A DNA stretch of 44,103 nt from Granulicoccus phenolivorans DSM 17626 = NBRC 107789 = JCM 15570 (lineage in GTDB: Bacteria > Actinomycetota > Actinomycetes > Propionibacteriales > Propionibacteriaceae): assembly GCF_000423085.1 (NCBI RefSeq), contig NZ_AUHH01000036.1, positions 1-44,103 on the forward strand. The letters are read 5' to 3'. Every line of letters starts with the position of its first letter. Positions within the stretch are counted from its first letter, which is position 1. The notes under the pieces are model-generated. The model saw only the letters and a list, made by a program, of their open reading frames with translations. It did not search any database and was not told the origin of the DNA. Both the position numbers and the translations under genes were made by a program. Positions 12,888 through 38,946 of this stretch are shown piece after piece.

Positions 12888-14336
12888 GTGATGAGCGAGC
12901 ACCCGTACCTGCCGCGCCGGATCTACGGCCTGGAGACCGAGCTCGGCGTCGCGTACGTGCCCGCCGAGACCCAGGAGCGCAGCCGTCGGGTCACCCCCGA
13001 CGAGATCGCCCGGTACCTGTTCCGCGGCGTCGTCGACTGGGGGCGCTCCAGCAACGTGTTCCTGCGCAACGGGTCCCGGGTCTATCTGGACGTCGGGTCG
13101 CATCCGGAGTACGCCACCGCCGAATGCGACGATCCGACCGAGGTGACCATCCAGGACCGGGCCGGGATGGAGATCCTGCAGGCCCTGGCCGATGACGCCG
13201 AGGGGGCCCTGGCGCAGGAGGAACTCGGCGGCGACATCTACCTGTTCAAGAACAACACCGATTCGCACGGCAGTTCCTACGGGTGTCACGAGAATTATCT
13301 GGTGGCCCGGGAGGGGCGCTTCGGCGATTTCGCGCACCAACTGCTGCCGTTCCTGATCACCCGGCAGTTGCTGTGCGGGGCGGGTCGGATCGTGCCGCAC
13401 ACCGGGCTGGTGCTCTCCCAGCGTGCCGCGCACATGTGGGACACGGTCTCCTCGGCGACCACCCGGACCCGGCCGATGATCAACACCCGTGACGAGCCGC
13501 ATGCCGACCCGGCAGAGTACCGCCGGCTGCATGTGATCATCGGCGACTCCAACATGGCCGAGCCGACCACCCGGCTCAAGGTCGGGATGACCGAGTTCGC
13601 GTTGCGGCTGATCGAATCCGGGACCCCGATGCGGGATCTGAGTCTGGCGAACCCGGCCAAGGCGATGCGGGAGATGGCCGCCGATCCGACCGGCCGGGTG
13701 CCGCTGGAACTCAGCAACGGGCGGACCGCCAGTGCGCTGGACCTGCAGCAGGAGTACTTCACCGCGACGCTGGACCTGGTCGCCCGGCACGGCGATCCGG
13801 GGCCGACCCTGACCGCGGTGCTGGACCTGTGGCGGCGCGGCCTGACCGCGATCGGGACCCAGGACTTCACCGGGGTGCAGACCGAGCTGGACTGGGTGAT
13901 CAAGCGCCGGGTCCTGCAGCGGTACGCCGACCGGCACCAGTTGCCGCTGGATGATCCGCGGATCCGCCAGTTGGAGCTGGCGTACCACGATCTGAATCCG
14001 CGGCGCAGCCTGTTCGCCCGGCTGGAGCGCAGCGGGGCGATCACCCGGCTGTCGACCGCGGAGCAGGTGACCGCCGCGCGGACGGTCCCGCCGCAGACGA
14101 CCCGGGCCAAGCTGCGCGGAGATTTCGTGGCCGCCGCCGAGGACGCCGGGGCCGGCCATGTGGTCGACTGGACCTCGGTGCGGTTGCTGGAAAAGGCGCA
14201 GCGGCCGTGGTCGGCGCCGATGGCCGAACCCCGGCTGCCGGTGCACACGGTGGTGGTGACCGATCCCTTCGCCACCAGTGACCCCGATGTCGATGAGTTG
14301 ATGGAGGCCGTCGCGCACTACCGCGCTGAGGACTGA
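12888..14336 (+). CDS. pafA: Pup-protein ligase PafA
   Basis: A 482-aa glutamine-synthetase-like ligase that joins the prokaryotic ubiquitin-like protein Pup to lysines of target proteins. Diagnostic sequences are RRIYGLETELGV (ATP/Mg glutamates), WGRSSNVFLRNGSRVYLDVG, HPEYATAECD, DIYLFKNNTDSHGSSYGCHENYL and TTRAKLRGDFV. These match PafA rather than the paralogous depupylase Dop. Starts GTG 12888 and ATG 12891 are both possible. It is slightly longer than the ~452 aa mycobacterial enzyme, with extra residues near the N-terminus and tail. Pup, Dop, Mpa/ARC and the proteasome genes are not in this window, so they lie elsewhere. Confidence 0.95.
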   Translation: MMSEHPYLPRRIYGLETELGVAYVPAETQERSRRVTPDEIARYLFRGVVDWGRSSNVFLRNGSRVYLDVGSHPEYATAECDDPTEVTIQDRAGMEILQALADDAEGALAQEELGGDIYLFKNNTDSHGSSYGCHENYLVAREGRFGDFAHQLLPFLITRQLLCGAGRIVPHTGLVLSQRAAHMWDTVSSATTRTRPMINTRDEPHADPAEYRRLHVIIGDSNMAEPTTRLKVGMTEFALRLIESGTPMRDLSLANPAKAMREMAADPTGRVPLELSNGRTASALDLQQEYFTATLDLVARHGDPGPTLTAVLDLWRRGLTAIGTQDFTGVQTELDWVIKRRVLQRYADRHQLPLDDPRIRQLELAYHDLNPRRSLFARLERSGAITRLSTAEQVTAARTVPPQTTRAKLRGDFVAAAEDAGAGHVVDWTSVRLLEKAQRPWSAPMAEPRLPVHTVVVTDPFATSDPDVDELMEAVAHYRAED

Positions 14337-14398
14337 GCCCGGTTTGAGCAGCCGGGAACCGGGATCGGGGACGCCGGCGCAGGATCAGGAGCCCTGAG

Positions 14399-14962
14399 AT
14401 GAGACGACACCCGTGGCGCCGGATCGCCGCCTGGCTGATCGACTGCGGCCTGATCATGTTGTACGCCGGGCTGCTCGCCCTGGTCGGCGTACCGCTGACG
14501 AGGGCGGGGGTGCTCGGCCCCCTCCCGCTGGCGGCGGCCAACGTGCTGGCCGCGCTCGTGCTGGTCGTTCCGGTGGTGCTGGTGCTGGCCGGTCTGGAGG
14601 CCGGGCGGCGCGCGGCCACGGTGGGGAAGCGGGTGCTCGGGCTGCGGCTGGCCGGTGCTGCGGGTGCCGGTGCTGCGGGTACTGGTGCCCCGGGGGCCCC
14701 GGGGTATCCCCGGGCACTGCTGCGCAATGCGGTGAAGGTCGCCCTGCCGTGGCTCATCGCGCACAGCGCGGTCTACGGAATCTGGGACGGTTCGGCCCGG
14801 GGCGCGGTCCCCGGCTGGGTGTGGCCGGCGTTCGCCGTGGCGTACGCGATCCCGCTGGTGTGGCTGGTGACCCTGTTCGTCGGGACCGGGCGGACCCCAT
14901 ACGACCGGCTGGCCCGGGTCTCGGTGATCGAGGCATCCGGGGACGCCGCGACGCGCGCCTAG
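14399..14962 (+). CDS. RDD-family integral membrane protein
   Basis: A 187-aa membrane protein. The N-terminal RRIAAWLIDCGLIM supplies the Arg-Asp pattern of the family, and TVGKRVLGLRL is the conserved loop after the second membrane segment. Four hydrophobic segments are visible: about residues 13-33, 42-63, 115-130 and 140-160. The loop between segments 2 and 3 is an Ala/Gly repeat (AGAAGAGAAGTGAPGAPG). The ATG at 14399 has AGGA 9-12 nt upstream. Substrate unknown; an ion transporter or membrane scaffold are family possibilities. It follows pafA with 62 bp of spacer. Confidence 0.8.
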   Translation: MRRHPWRRIAAWLIDCGLIMLYAGLLALVGVPLTRAGVLGPLPLAAANVLAALVLVVPVVLVLAGLEAGRRAATVGKRVLGLRLAGAAGAGAAGTGAPGAPGYPRALLRNAVKVALPWLIAHSAVYGIWDGSARGAVPGWVWPAFAVAYAIPLVWLVTLFVGTGRTPYDRLARVSVIEASGDAATRA

Positions 14963-15091
14963 TCCGGATCGGCTGGTCGGGCGGGTCCGCTGGTCAGCGC
15001 CCGTGACGGGGTCAGCCCGGGCGGGCCCGCGTACCGCCACTGGGGCTCCCGCTGCGATCTCCGGCTCCGGTTTGCGGGTTGGGTTCGGTCG

Positions 15092-15132
15092 CGCGGGTCC
15101 TGCAGGGGCCGCGGGCCGGATCCGGACCCGCG
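15092..15132. repeat. Inverted repeat, array copy 1
   Basis: CGCGGGTCC (15092-15100) and GGACCCGCG (15124-15132) are perfect 9-bp arms around a 23-bp GC-rich centre containing TGCAGGGGCC. Confidence 0.8.
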
Positions 15133-15458
15133 AGACGGCACGAGCACCCGCGAGCAGCCGGAAGGGCCCCCGCACCGTCAGGAAGCTCCCGTGGGACCTG
15201 CCGAGCAGCACCCGCGACTCGGGTGAACATCCGCGAACCGGCACCAGCCACCGCGAGCAGCCGGGAGGCCCGCGTGCCGCGAGGAAGCCCCGCGCGCTGG
15301 ACGTGGCCAGCACCGGCGAACCGGGGGAGGGCCCGCGTACCGCCACCGGGCCCCGCGGACGGTCGGGGAGGCCCGCGGACTGCGATCTCCCGATTCGGGT
15401 TTGCGGGTTGGATTCGGTCGCGCGGGTTGGGTTCGGTCGCGCGGGTTGGGTTCGGTCA

Positions 15459-15499
15459 CGCGGGTCCTGCAGGGGCCGCGGGCCGGATCCGGACCCGCG
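15459..15499. repeat. Inverted repeat, array copy 2
   Basis: The same 9-bp arms as copy 1 (15459-15467 and 15491-15499) with the same 23-bp centre, directly after three 19-bp units. Confidence 0.8.
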
Positions 15500-15806
15500 A
15501 GACGGCACCAGCACCCGCGAGCAGCCAGGAGGGCCCGCGCACCGTTATGAAGCTCGCGTGGGACCTGCCGACCAGCACCTGCGGGCCATATCTGGACCCG
15601 CGAGACGGCACGAGCACCCGCGAACTGGGGGAGGGCCCGCGTACCGCCAGGAAGCCCCGCGCGCTGGATGTGGCCAGCACCTGCGAACCGGGGGAGGATC
15701 CGCGTACCGCCACCGGGGCCCGCGGACGGTCGGGGAGGCCCGCGGACTGCGACCTTCCGATTCGGGCACGCGGGTTGGGTTCGGTCGCGCGGGTTGGGTT
15801 CGGTCG

Positions 15807-15847
15807 CGCGGGTCCTGCAGGGGCCGCGGGCCGTATCCGGACCCGCG
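15807..15847. repeat. Inverted repeat, array copy 3
   Basis: The same 9-bp arms (15807-15815 and 15839-15847) and a 23-bp centre with one visible change (GTATCC for GGATCC), directly after two 19-bp units. Confidence 0.8.
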
Positions 15848-16080
15848 AGACGGCACCAGTACCGCGTGCTGCCAGGAGAACCCGCGAATTGGCACCTGCA
15901 TCCGCGTACCCGGCCCGGGCCGGGCTCCGCCCCAGGGGAACACCGGCGCCAGGACCCGCGAACCGGCGCCAGCACCCGCAAACCAGCGCCAGCCCCGCGA
16001 GCCGGGCGAACATCCGCAAATCGACACCAGCCCCCGCGCCCGGCCGCGTCCGGCCGCGCCCCGGACCACGATTCGCGCGA

Positions 16081-16117
16081 TTCCGACGCATCCGGGGCGT
16101 CGGGTAGCCTGTCCGGG
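16081..16117 (+). promoter_or_regulatory. Candidate promoter of the FKBP lipoprotein gene
   Basis: TTCCGA at 16081-16086 and TAGCCT at 16105-16110 are 18 bp apart and resemble -35 and -10 boxes. The GTG start is 6 nt after the -10, suggesting a leaderless transcript. Confidence 0.45.
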
Positions 16118-17163
16118 TGCCGAGAACGATCCTGAACCGCCGCTTCATCACGGGCCTGGCGGGTGCGACCGCAGCCATGGTCCTGCTTGCCGGATGCTCC
16201 TCCCCGCAACCGGATTCGGGGCAGTCCCCGAGCCCGACGCCGGCCTCGGCCAGCCCGACCGCGCCCGCCTCGGCGGACCCGTCGGCCACCCCGACGCCCA
16301 CGCCGATCCCGCCGGCGGCGAATCTGGACGGGATCGCGGTCGCCGGTGCGTTCAACGCCGAGCCCCAGGTGACGTTGCCCGGCCCGTTCGCGGTCGAGGA
16401 GACGATGTCGAAGGTGCTCACCGAGGGCACCGGTTCAGTGATCAAGGAGAACGGCGTCGCCGAGGTCCACTATGTCGGGCTCAACGGCCGCACCGGCCAA
16501 AAGTTCGACGACTCCTACTCCCGCGGGCAGACCGTCGAGTTCACCCTGTCCCAGGTGGTACCCGGGTTCAAGAAGGGCCTGACCGGTAAGAAGGTCGGCA
16601 GCCGCGTCCTGATCGCGATGCCGGGCAAGGACGGCTACGACTCCTCCGGCGGCAACGCGAATGCCGGCATCGAGGTCGGCGACACCCTCGTGTTCGTCGT
16701 CGACATCGTCGCGGCACCGCTGGACACCGCCGCCGGAACCGAGCAGCCCGCCCCCCAGGGCGGGCCGACCGTCCAGTTCGGCGCCGACAACAAGCCCACG
16801 ATCACGATCCCGGCCAACACCAAGGCGCCGACCGAGCTGCAGTCCCATCCGCTGATCGTCGGCACCGGCAAGAAGGTCGCCGCGGGGGACACCGTCACCG
16901 TTCAGTACGCCGCCTCCTCCTGGCGTACCGGCGAGTCGATCATCGACATCTACGGTCAACCCGAGCAGGGCGCGCTGAACAAGATGATCCCGGCCTGGCA
17001 GGAGGCGCTGGTCAACCAGCCGGTCGGCAGCCGGATCCTGATCGTCGCGCCGCCGGACAAGGCGTACCCCGAGGGCAGCGATCGGCCGCGGGTCCAGGCC
17101 GGCGACACCGTCGTGTTCGTGGTCGACATCCTGTGGACCGCGCAGGCGCAGAGCGGCTTCTGA
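16117..17163 (+). CDS. Lipoprotein with two FKBP-type peptidyl-prolyl isomerase domains
   Basis: A 348-aa exported protein. The signal peptide NRRFITGLAGATAAMVLLAGC ends in a lipobox with Cys27 as the lipid-anchored residue. A Ser/Pro/Thr-rich linker follows to about residue 65. FKBP domain 1 (about 90-205) has VAEVHYVGLNGRTGQKFDDSY, VVPGFKKGLTGKKVGSRVLIAMP and GDTLVFVVDIV; domain 2 (about 220-348) repeats the pattern with substitutions (VTVQYAASSWRTGE, QPVGSRILIVAPPDKAY, GDTVVFVVDIL) and lacks the FDDS residues, so it may be inactive. It probably folds secreted proteins at the outer membrane face. An FKBP gene between pafA and pafBC is also found in Streptomyces. Confidence 0.9.
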   Translation: MPRTILNRRFITGLAGATAAMVLLAGCSSPQPDSGQSPSPTPASASPTAPASADPSATPTPTPIPPAANLDGIAVAGAFNAEPQVTLPGPFAVEETMSKVLTEGTGSVIKENGVAEVHYVGLNGRTGQKFDDSYSRGQTVEFTLSQVVPGFKKGLTGKKVGSRVLIAMPGKDGYDSSGGNANAGIEVGDTLVFVVDIVAAPLDTAAGTEQPAPQGGPTVQFGADNKPTITIPANTKAPTELQSHPLIVGTGKKVAAGDTVTVQYAASSWRTGESIIDIYGQPEQGALNKMIPAWQEALVNQPVGSRILIVAPPDKAYPEGSDRPRVQAGDTVVFVVDILWTAQAQSGF

Positions 17164-17168
17164 GCCCC

Positions 17169-17182
17169 GCCCCCACGGGGGC
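17169..17182. terminator. Possible hairpin between converging FKBP and gluQ genes
   Basis: GCCCCC (17169-17174) and GGGGGC (17177-17182) form a short GC stem between two convergent genes. There is no T-run, so it is a weak candidate. Confidence 0.3.
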
Positions 17183-17203
17183 CCGGGCCGAAAACCCCAC
17201 GGT

Positions 17204-18088
17204 TCAGCCGAACACCCACGGGTCACGGGGGAGCCGGGCCGGATCGAACCGGTCCAGCAACAGCTCCGGCGTGACCGGTTCGCCCGGGGCGGCCAACCCC
17301 ACCGATGCCGCCAGCAAGCTGAGCACCGCGGCGGCGTCGGTGCCGGCGGCGGCCAGATCGGCCAGGGTCACCGCGCCGTCGCGCTTGGCCAGCCGCTGAC
17401 CGGCGGCATTGACCACCAGCGGCACATGGGCGTACGCCGCGGGCGTACCCCCCAACCGGCTGGTCAACCAGGCCTGCCGCGGCGCCGACGACAGCAGGTC
17501 GTCGCCGCGCACGATCTGGTCGATGGCCATCGCGAGATCGTCGACCACCACCACGAAGTTGTACGCCCAGGCGCCGTCATTGCGGCGGATCACGAAATCG
17601 TCGACCTCACCGGTCACCTCCCCGTGCAGCAGATCGGTCACCGTCCAACTGGTCACGTCGGCGCGGATCCGCAGCGCGGCCGGCCGTTCCCGGCGCCGGC
17701 GGGCCCGCTCGGCCTCGGTCAGGTCCCGGCAGGTGCCCGGGTAGGCCGTCGGGGAGGTGTGCGGGGCACCCACGGACTCCGCGATCTCGCGGCGGGTGCA
17801 GTAGCACTCGTAGACCGGCAGCCCCGCCGCTGCCTGCTGGTAGGCGGCCAGTCGCGCGGACTGGAACACCACCGGAGGATCGAAGTCCAGACCCAGTGCG
17901 GCCAGGTCGGCGATCTGTTGCTCGGCGCTCGCCGGGGACGCCGCGACCCGGGCCCGATCCAGATCCTCCACCCGGATCCGGAACCCGCGTCCGGTCGAGC
18001 GTGCGAACAGCCAGGCCAGCAGCGCCGTCCGCAGGTTCCCCACGTGCAGGGCGCTGGTGGGGCTGGGGGCGAACCGGCCGGCCGACAT
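17204..18088 (-). CDS. gluQ: Glutamyl-queuosine tRNA(Asp) synthetase
   Basis: A 294-aa truncated glutamyl-tRNA synthetase paralogue that attaches glutamate to queuosine in the tRNA(Asp) anticodon. Its HIGH-type motif is FAPSPTSALHVGNLRTALLAW, the zinc site is ECYC with YPGTC further on, and the KMSKS-type motif is reduced to RLAKRDG. It lacks an anticodon-binding domain, as expected for GluQRS (about 290-310 aa). The ATG at 18088 has GAGGAGGC a few bases upstream; the frame is open much further but overlaps pafB in antisense. It is the only minus-strand gene among the paf/tat genes and is divergent from pafB with a 39-bp gap. Confidence 0.93.
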   Translation of the reverse strand: MSAGRFAPSPTSALHVGNLRTALLAWLFARSTGRGFRIRVEDLDRARVAASPASAEQQIADLAALGLDFDPPVVFQSARLAAYQQAAAGLPVYECYCTRREIAESVGAPHTSPTAYPGTCRDLTEAERARRRRERPAALRIRADVTSWTVTDLLHGEVTGEVDDFVIRRNDGAWAYNFVVVVDDLAMAIDQIVRGDDLLSSAPRQAWLTSRLGGTPAAYAHVPLVVNAAGQRLAKRDGAVTLADLAAAGTDAAAVLSLLAASVGLAAPGEPVTPELLLDRFDPARLPRDPWVFG

Positions 18089-38130: not shown

Positions 38131-38946
38131 TCATTCTCCTTGGGCGGTGGATCCGACGTTGCTGGTGGGGGATCCGACGTTGCTGGTGGGGGATCCGACG
38201 TTGCTGGTGGGAGATCCCACCAGGGCGAGGAAGACCTCTTCGAGGGTGGGTTGCTTCTCGACGTACTCGATTTCGGCGGCCGGCAGCAGCCGCTTCAACG
38301 CCGCCGGCGAGCCGCTGTGGATGATGCGCCCACGGTGCAGGATCGCGATCCGGTCGGCCAGGTGCTCGGCCTCGTCGAGGTCCTGGGTCGTGAGCAGCAC
38401 GGTGGTGCCGGCATCGGCCAGCTCCCGTACCAGCTGCCAGACCTCCAGGCGGGACTGCGGGTCCAGGCCGGTCGTCGGCTCATCGAGGAAAATCACCGGT
38501 GGTCGGCCGACCAGGCTCATGGCGATGTCGAGGCGGCGGCGCATGCCGCCGGAGTAGGTGGCGGCCCGGCGGTCGCGGGCCTCGGTCAGCGCGAAGCGGG
38601 AGAGCAGTTGGTCGGCTACGCCGCGCGGGTCGGGGAGGTGCCGCAGTTGCGCGACGAGCACCAGGTTCTCCCGACCGGTGAGGGCCTCGTCGACGGCGGC
38701 GAACTGACCGGTCAGACTGATCGATTCCCGCACCTGCTGGGGAGCGGTGGCGACGTCGTGGCCGTTGATCACCGCGGTACCGGCGTCCGGCCGACACACC
38801 GTGGCGAGGATCCGGATCAGCGTCGTCTTGCCGGCCCCGTTCGAGCCGAGCAGGGCGACGATCTCCCCGGTGGCCACATCGAGGTCGACGCCGCGCAGCA
38901 CGGAGACATTCTTGAAGGCCTTGGTGAGGCCGCTGACGTGGATCAT
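38131..38946 (-). CDS. ABC transporter ATP-binding protein (DrrA-like) with C-terminal heptapeptide repeat
   Basis: A 271-aa ATPase. Walker A is LLGSNGAGKTT, the Q-loop is SLTGQFAAVDEALTG, the signature is YSGGMRRRLD, Walker B is PVIFLDEPTTGLDP, and the H-loop region reads LLTTQDLDEAEHL, with Gln where many family members have His. TLEEVFLAL marks the normal DrrA C-terminus, after which come three copies of VGSPTSN and the ending VGSTAQGE. GGAGGAACC precedes the ATG. It powers the permease encoded next. Confidence 0.92.
   Translation of the reverse strand: MIHVSGLTKAFKNVSVLRGVDLDVATGEIVALLGSNGAGKTTLIRILATVCRPDAGTAVINGHDVATAPQQVRESISLTGQFAAVDEALTGRENLVLVAQLRHLPDPRGVADQLLSRFALTEARDRRAATYSGGMRRRLDIAMSLVGRPPVIFLDEPTTGLDPQSRLEVWQLVRELADAGTTVLLTTQDLDEAEHLADRIAILHRGRIIHSGSPAALKRLLPAAEIEYVEKQPTLEEVFLALVGSPTSNVGSPTSNVGSPTSNVGSTAQGE
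38149..38211. repeat. Three 21-bp tandem repeats at the 3' end of the ABC ATPase gene
   Basis: Three identical copies of a 21-bp unit (38149-38169, 38170-38190, 38191-38211), followed by a partial unit. In frame on the minus strand each encodes VGSPTSN. Identity at DNA level means recent expansion. Confidence 0.92.

Follow-up and report, generated by a model that had tools for sequence, protein, structure and literature searches.

What kind of sequence fills the 1,154 bp between the RDD-family gene next to pafA and the FKBP gene of Granulicoccus phenolivorans? By our own gene calls this is the largest intergenic gap in the window, i.e., the whole 44,103-nt stretch of DNA analyzed here. The first-pass annotation had placed a non-coding array between these genes, a position that Pfam matches to the flanking genes bear out, and had described it as two 311-bp bodies of diverged middle sequence separated by 1, 3 and 2 copies of a 19-bp unit. 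These dimensions are reproduced. TRF reports a 367-bp period at 15074-15813, with 88% matches and 0% indels, as well as a 19-bp period both at 15403-15465 and at 15761-15813, and the bodies at 15092-15402 and 15459-15769 are 86.2% identical without indels, with mismatches densest in the middle, at about 15154-15273. A third, partial body from 15807 is 90% identical over its first 60 bp and 69% identical over 90 bp, and a direct count gives 1, 3 and 2 copies of the unit ahead of the three successive dyads (Table 1).

Table 1. Features of the array locus and its flanking genes, in window coordinates.
Position	Strand	Feature	Evidence
12888-14336		pafA, upstream of the RDD gene	Pfam PF03136
14399..14962	+	Flanking gene: RDD-family membrane protein, directly downstream of pafA	Pfam PF06271
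15020..15073	+	Degenerate leading fragment of the array, like the ends of both bodies	Repeat families D5, D6
15074..15091	+	Left arm, dyad 1: single 19-bp unit GCGGGTTGGGTTCGGTCGC, whose final base also opens dyad 1	TRF, rung positions
15092..15113	.	Dyad 1, 22 bp, CGCGGGTCCTGCAGGGGCCGCG	Pattern search, 0 mismatches
15114..15402	-	Right arm, dyad 1 (remainder of first 311-bp body): CCGCG rungs, mostly in 19-20-bp steps, some decayed, directed back to the dyad	Rung positions
15403..15458	+	Left arm, dyad 2: three 19-bp units, the third of which ends on the base that opens dyad 2	TRF, rung positions
15459..15480	.	Dyad 2, 22 bp	Pattern search
15481..15769	-	Right arm, dyad 2 (remainder of second 311-bp body)	Rung positions
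15770..15806	+	Left arm, dyad 3: two 19-bp units, the second of which ends on the base that opens dyad 3	TRF, rung positions
15807..15828	.	Dyad 3, 22 bp	Pattern search
15829..16058	-	Right arm, dyad 3: 19-20-bp steps initially, then degenerate (39-bp and irregular steps), ending just short of the FKBP gene	TRF, rung positions, spacing
16117..17163	+	Flanking gene: FKBP-type peptidyl-prolyl isomerase	Pfam PF00254

Two other tandem repeats were seen in the window. TRF finds a short repeat of 19-bp period at 17187-17225, right behind the FKBP gene, and a 21-bp unit (3.3 copies, 97% match) lies at 38149-38217 inside the predicted gene 38131-38946, where it may be a variable coding repeat.

The bodies and the 19-bp units are not separate parts of the array, as both belong to a single structure made of strings of CGCGGG motifs ("rungs") in 18-20-bp steps. 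The center of this structure is the 22-bp dyad CGCGGnnCCTGCAGGnnCCGCG, and rungs on both flanks are directed inwards at it, reading CGCGGG to the left of each dyad in the window and CCCGCG to the right, i.e., rung direction flips at the dyads. Of the 36 same-direction CGCGG pairs up to 32 bp apart in the window's intergenic region, 30 lie at 18-20 bp, while 500 dinucleotide shuffles averaged 0.5 pairs at this distance and never exceeded 4. Since local decay interrupts the chains, a longest-chain test on single window arms was not strong: 30, 12 and 12 of 300 shuffles attained the observed chain. The two bodies are not independently conserved either. Their equal length follows from one 367-bp tandem duplication, whose copies are 88% identical and differ by 45 substitutions, densest in the middle, and no indels. 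The proposal that selection acts on DNA or RNA can therefore not be read from the two lengths. A constraint on the DNA is nevertheless hinted at by the substitutions, which fall on 4 of 83 rung positions (counting a rung in either copy) compared with 41 of 284 positions outside rungs, and by a motif-anchored pitch in four genomes. The RNA part of the proposal finds no such hint in covariation, as discussed below.

The source genome (G000) is a 4.12-Mb draft in 74 contigs. The first-pass annotation had named a lack of other genome hits as part of what would refute it, and such hits were found: blastn with the window array gave 74 matches that merge into 35 loci on 26 contigs, 34 of them besides the window. 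When one mismatch is allowed, a search for the dyad pattern hits the genome at 69 forward sites, compared with 2 for a reversed-pattern control. In 55 stretches there are 307 same-direction pairs of CGCGGG at distances of 8-32 bp, of which 260 have a spacing of 18-20 bp. Blastn similarity to the window array had selected 35 of these stretches, and dyad matches or contig starts the other 20, so that spacing as such selected none; a query of this pitch nonetheless gives an advantage to copies with the same pitch. A secondary peak at 30 bp comprises 23 pairs of the same stretches. Eighteen of the 35 loci are within 1 kb of a contig end and runs of N occur inside at least two arrays (e.g., L025 and L042); the repeat probably contributes to breaks in the assembly, and rung numbers may be collapsed in a draft of this kind.

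Array copies are intergenic. Overlaps of more than 20 bp with a predicted gene occur in 0 of the 74 blastn matches, the predictions coming from our own codon-based caller rather than a published one. Where both neighbours are visible, six loci lie between same-strand, six between convergent and four between divergent genes (16 loci), and the corresponding numbers in G015, another genome of the family, are nine, three and six (18 loci). Gene context thus shows no clear orientation bias in either genome, and a terminator or promoter role was rejected on this basis. Twenty neighbouring genes were scanned, of which 19 had a Pfam match to varied functions (e.g., histidinol dehydrogenase, SecA domains and SAICAR synthetase) and none to a transposase.

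For a closer view of the dyad we aligned 52 copies from the source genome without gaps. They were kept from 75 candidates with up to three mismatches after dropping duplicates, copies near the end of a stretch, copies with N and copies flanked by fewer than two rungs. Their consensus reads ttcGg..gCGCGGGttGggtTCGGgt.[CGCGGGcCCTGCAGGGgCCGCG].gcCG.ATg.GGaCCcGCGagC.Gcca..aG..CCcGcg. The first unit on either side is conserved over most of its length, and farther out little is conserved beyond the rungs. Dyad pair 7/16 is mostly C-G or T-G, whereas pair 6/17 is Watson-Crick in 10% of copies and commonly G-G, i.e., a conserved mismatch. Convergent CGCGG pairs in the genome have outer lengths mainly of 22/23, 41-43 and 60/61 bp. 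Two turns of B-DNA take 21 bp, so a variable pitch of 18-20 bp falls short of clean helical phasing, a point against the reading proposed below, and we favour end-to-end footprints over phasing as the source of the pitch.

We lean, with slightly better than even confidence, towards reading the window array as one locus of a lineage-specific, BIME-like family of dispersed intergenic DNA repeats that is presumably recognized by a protein and has spread by local duplication and by copying independent of a Y1 transposase. The element comprises the 22-bp dyad and both of its flanks, each with a CGCGGG ladder at 18-20 bp directed at the dyad. Rung and dyad sequence would be kept through recognition as DNA, either by a DNA-binding protein that covers roughly one rung per 19-20 bp or by the machinery that copies the repeat. 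New copies would arise by local duplication and, elsewhere in the genome, through a non-Y1 copying route. By analogy, the family may work like BIME-type interspersed repeats without being assigned to them.

Similar ladders occur sporadically in the family. Blastn and pattern searches of relatives found no second genome of the same genus. A three-rung pattern with 18-20-bp steps matches 140 times in the source genome and, among 197 other family genomes, 46 times in G156, 36 in G015, 26 in G004, 11 in G130 and no more than seven times in any other. The sister species of the first three of these genomes (G156, G015 and G004) have 0-5 matches. Among the matches listed for 295 other genomes of the class, the highest counts are 37 and 36, with 15 and 11 for reversed controls, and an 18-bp step, which is divisible by 3, is common among the listed matches. 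Ladders of similar pitch are present in three other genera of the family (G015, G004 and G156), at loci chosen by the three-rung pattern, so that their direct pitch is partly a product of the choice. In G015, 21 copies align with inverted ends, and the aligned block is 112-115 bp long in 20 of the 21 at a mean column identity of 69%. Convergent pairs of 22/23 bp recur in G015, partly because of its 8-bp CCCGCGGG rung, and at 23 bp in G004 with the 5-bp motif. In G156, 26 of 29 pairs within 32 bp have a 20-bp pitch. Five pattern-picked loci of G017 carry a related motif, GGGCGC, whose direct pairs are all 19 bp apart (16 of 16), and its inverted pairs span 22 bp in two cases. The geometry therefore recurs across genera while the sequence changes, which would fit common descent and convergence alike.

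Blastn of window positions 15074-15830 against 56 relatives gave weak, short matches in six (E 8e-4 to 1.9e-5). The 500 bp around seven of the eight matches revealed one ladder of 19-bp units, in G004, and the eighth match lies inside the same ladder. A loose dyad pattern matched in one of the 56 relatives (G017), with no ladder around the match. The exact pattern CGCGGSYCCTGCAGGRSCCGCG occurs in three stretches of a genome contig collection from which the source genome was possibly left out, and none of the three sits in a ladder. One of them, in Geodermatophilus chilensis (L076:2099-2120), is a dyad-like sequence at which the contig ends in a perfect fold-back, probably an end of the assembly. 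We also measured 7-mer spacing of any motif in intergenic samples of G103 and G107 (200 kb each), G003 (160 kb), G019 and G015 (120 kb each), and none had its main peak at 18-20 bp; the power is low, as the G015 sample missed that genome's own arrays (0, 2 and 4 pairs). G019 had a modest excess of 17, 11 and 13 pairs at 18, 19 and 20 bp compared with 59 at 24 bp, while 18 bp accounted for 24 pairs in G103 and 20 bp for 15 in G107.

Other repeats were encountered in these genomes. G015 has a second dispersed palindromic repeat (L128:57-221) whose CTGAGCCTGTCGAAG / CTTCGACAGGCTCAG units form inverted pairs and which matches that genome dozens of times, and CTTCGACAGGCTCAG-like units begin arrays in stretches of G133, G135 and G017. 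A long run of near-identical copies of the 19-bp unit GGGCGCGGTGGCGAGCTCA lies in G135 (L147, C1:464341-464612), and further loci of G135, G017 and G014 have GGGCGC-based ladders of 18-20-bp pitch.

The recurring geometry might also reflect a satellite-like system: genome-wide intergenic arrays of protein-binding rungs in species of this one actinobacterial family, with a common 18-20-bp pitch converging on a 22/23-bp dyad and fast-changing sequence, and either a co-evolving DNA-binding protein that organizes the chromosome or a selfish repeat driven by such a protein without a Y1 transposase. We hold this as a tentative possibility. The near-absence of ladders in sister species is what neutral or selfish spread would produce rather than conserved function, and it counts against our preferred reading of a protein-recognized repeat family.

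How the arrays grow bears on a purely neutral explanation. Adjacent 13-nt spacers in the source genome are 67% identical within a locus compared with 44% between loci, which, together with the 367-bp duplication, supports local growth through tandem duplication. In G004 the values are 80% and 49%. Against local duplication, adjacent spacers in G015 are no more alike than those of other loci (43% and 50%, five pairs only). Slippage or unequal recombination could multiply a GC-rich 19-20-bp unit that nothing recognizes, and such tandem and dispersed repeats would account for the local homogeneity of spacers in G000 and G004, the sporadic distribution among species, the varied neighbours and the loci at contig ends, which are expected of long variable arrays. 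However, the rungs are kept and the pitch holds while spacers of different loci share only 44% of positions, rung direction flips at the dyad, and G015 copies are of nearly constant length at the identity given above. Moreover, 35 dispersed loci require copying, as slippage alone would not scatter a repeat to this many places. A purely neutral origin thus appears doubtful.

Copying could also be provided in trans by a transposase acting on a MITE/REPIN-like miniature mobile element, as suggested by the dispersed G015 copies of stereotyped length, many of which end in inverted GTTCACGCGG-like sequence. In line with mobility, the locus between phoU and a histidine kinase gene has nine rungs in G015 and 0-1 in six congeners (six of seven were aligned; G108 was left out as its flanks are on different contigs). 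However, the intergenic DNA of these congeners is too diverged to show a clean insertion junction, and no target-site duplication was seen by eye. The Y1 transposase (PF01797), the one class searched, had 0 matches in nine array-bearing genomes, the source genome included, while a control on 14 genomes had matches in five. We consider a transposase-moved element unlikely. An origin from a plasmid, phage or virus was rejected, since the array has no match in plasmids or phages and the exact 22-bp dyad pattern none in viral contigs.

A further alternative is a structured RNA (terminator, mRNA stabilizer or small RNA), with the convergent arms pairing into a single long stem-loop once transcribed. 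RNA fold z values are -2.3, -5.8 and -5.3 for the three window dyads and -6.0 (G015 L118), -3.1 (G015 L113), -2.7 (L030) and -1.6 (L039) for four other copies, compared with +1.3 for a dyad-free stretch of the window. Of the 52 source-genome copies, 30 reach z values below -2 on one strand and 20 do so on the other, and in 47 of them G-U pairs make one strand the more stable. Folding better than shuffles counts against recognition as DNA. Array orientation is decidable at four of the six same-strand loci (window 15074-15828, L035, L050 and L051), and at all four the better-folding arm orientation follows the flanking genes, too few cases to judge. However, complementary arms arise because both carry the same conserved motif, and compensatory changes would be expected if the fold were of importance. 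None were detectable: arm pairs in the source genome are paired in 74.6% of cases, where column shuffles give 73.7% (sd 0.6), and 29 cells are compensatory, where shuffles give 25.4 (sd 5.8), and G015 has 76.8% compared with 78.1%, 25 cells compared with 25.8, and an RNAalifold covariation term of -0.07. The rarity of Watson-Crick pairing at dyad pair 6/17, the mixed gene contexts of the 16 loci and the lack of Rfam matches up to E = 1 in window 14000-17200 also speak against an RNA element, which we regard as rather improbable. Conservation looks more like that of a directional DNA motif than of an RNA fold, and would fit DNA recognition without proving it.

Finally, an assembly artefact or a repetitive coding region is practically untenable, since, despite the loci at contig ends and the N runs inside at least two of them, the window copy and 16 others are contig-internal, diverged copies are not collapsed reads, the single-contig genomes G156 and G017 carry similar ladders, and, in line with the non-coding reading of the first-pass annotation, none of the periods 367, 19 and 20 is divisible by 3 and the gene calls put no gene over the array.

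The preferred reading, a dispersed repeat recognized as DNA, can be compared with known repeat kinds. CRISPR arrays have identical repeats and unique spacers of about 30 bp, and are ruled out here by the 18-20-bp pitch, the 6-bp motif and the direction flips. An IS element is excluded as there is no gene inside the array, and rRNA by the Rfam result, so the earlier statement that the array resembles none of the three stands. Iteron-type and transposon-end arrays of binding sites also repeat a directional motif about every 20 bp around a dyad. However, they occupy one or two places together with their own protein gene, while the array family is spread over 35 intergenic loci with no such gene among the 20 scanned neighbours.

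The closest likeness is to REP/BIME sequences, which sections of PMC2817692 describe as extragenic palindromes that recur at regular distances in alternating orientation and are bound by several proteins. The array family is likewise dispersed, extragenic, palindromic, clustered, regularly spaced and alternating in orientation, with a high copy number (35 loci and 69 dyads) and a 22-bp dyad within the 20-40-bp range of imperfect REP palindromes. In contrast, nearly all array dyads lack the GTAG and CGTC tags that, in sections of PMC3733652, set apart two large groups of REPs: among 52 copies, searched across the dyad and up to 12 bp beyond it, we found GTAG once, CTAC 0 times, CGTC once and GACG four times. 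The array family further differs by its directional rung motif with an 18-20-bp pitch, by a dyad with a conserved mismatch, and by the absence of a Y1/RAYT gene from the source genome. REPINs, as portrayed in parts of PMC3116915, resemble it in having two inverted conserved ends at a fixed distance around a variable spacer, extragenic placement and tandem clusters, but they show compensatory changes and linked RAYTs, neither of which is found in the array family. CGTC-tagged palindromic repeats are also dispersed without a dedicated transposase according to parts of PMC3733652, but the array element is longer, ladder-built and nearly always untagged. Membership in the REP/RAYT group was thus rejected, given the absent Y1 transposase, the tag in few copies and the lack of compensatory pairing.

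RAYT-linked palindromic repeats are mostly proteobacterial, with Nostoc and Acidobacteria also named, in the sections concerned of PMC2817692 and PMC3733652, and the main texts of both papers do not contain the word Actinobacteria. Among the matches listed in open-licence PMC text there is no description of such repeats in actinobacteria. The array represents an expanded palindromic repeat family in a high-GC actinobacterial genome without a Y1 transposase. If the ladder is read by a protein, the family would offer a tractable system in which genome-wide repeats and a bacterial DNA-binding protein co-evolve fast; should nothing read it, it would be a clear case of selfish or neutral expansion.
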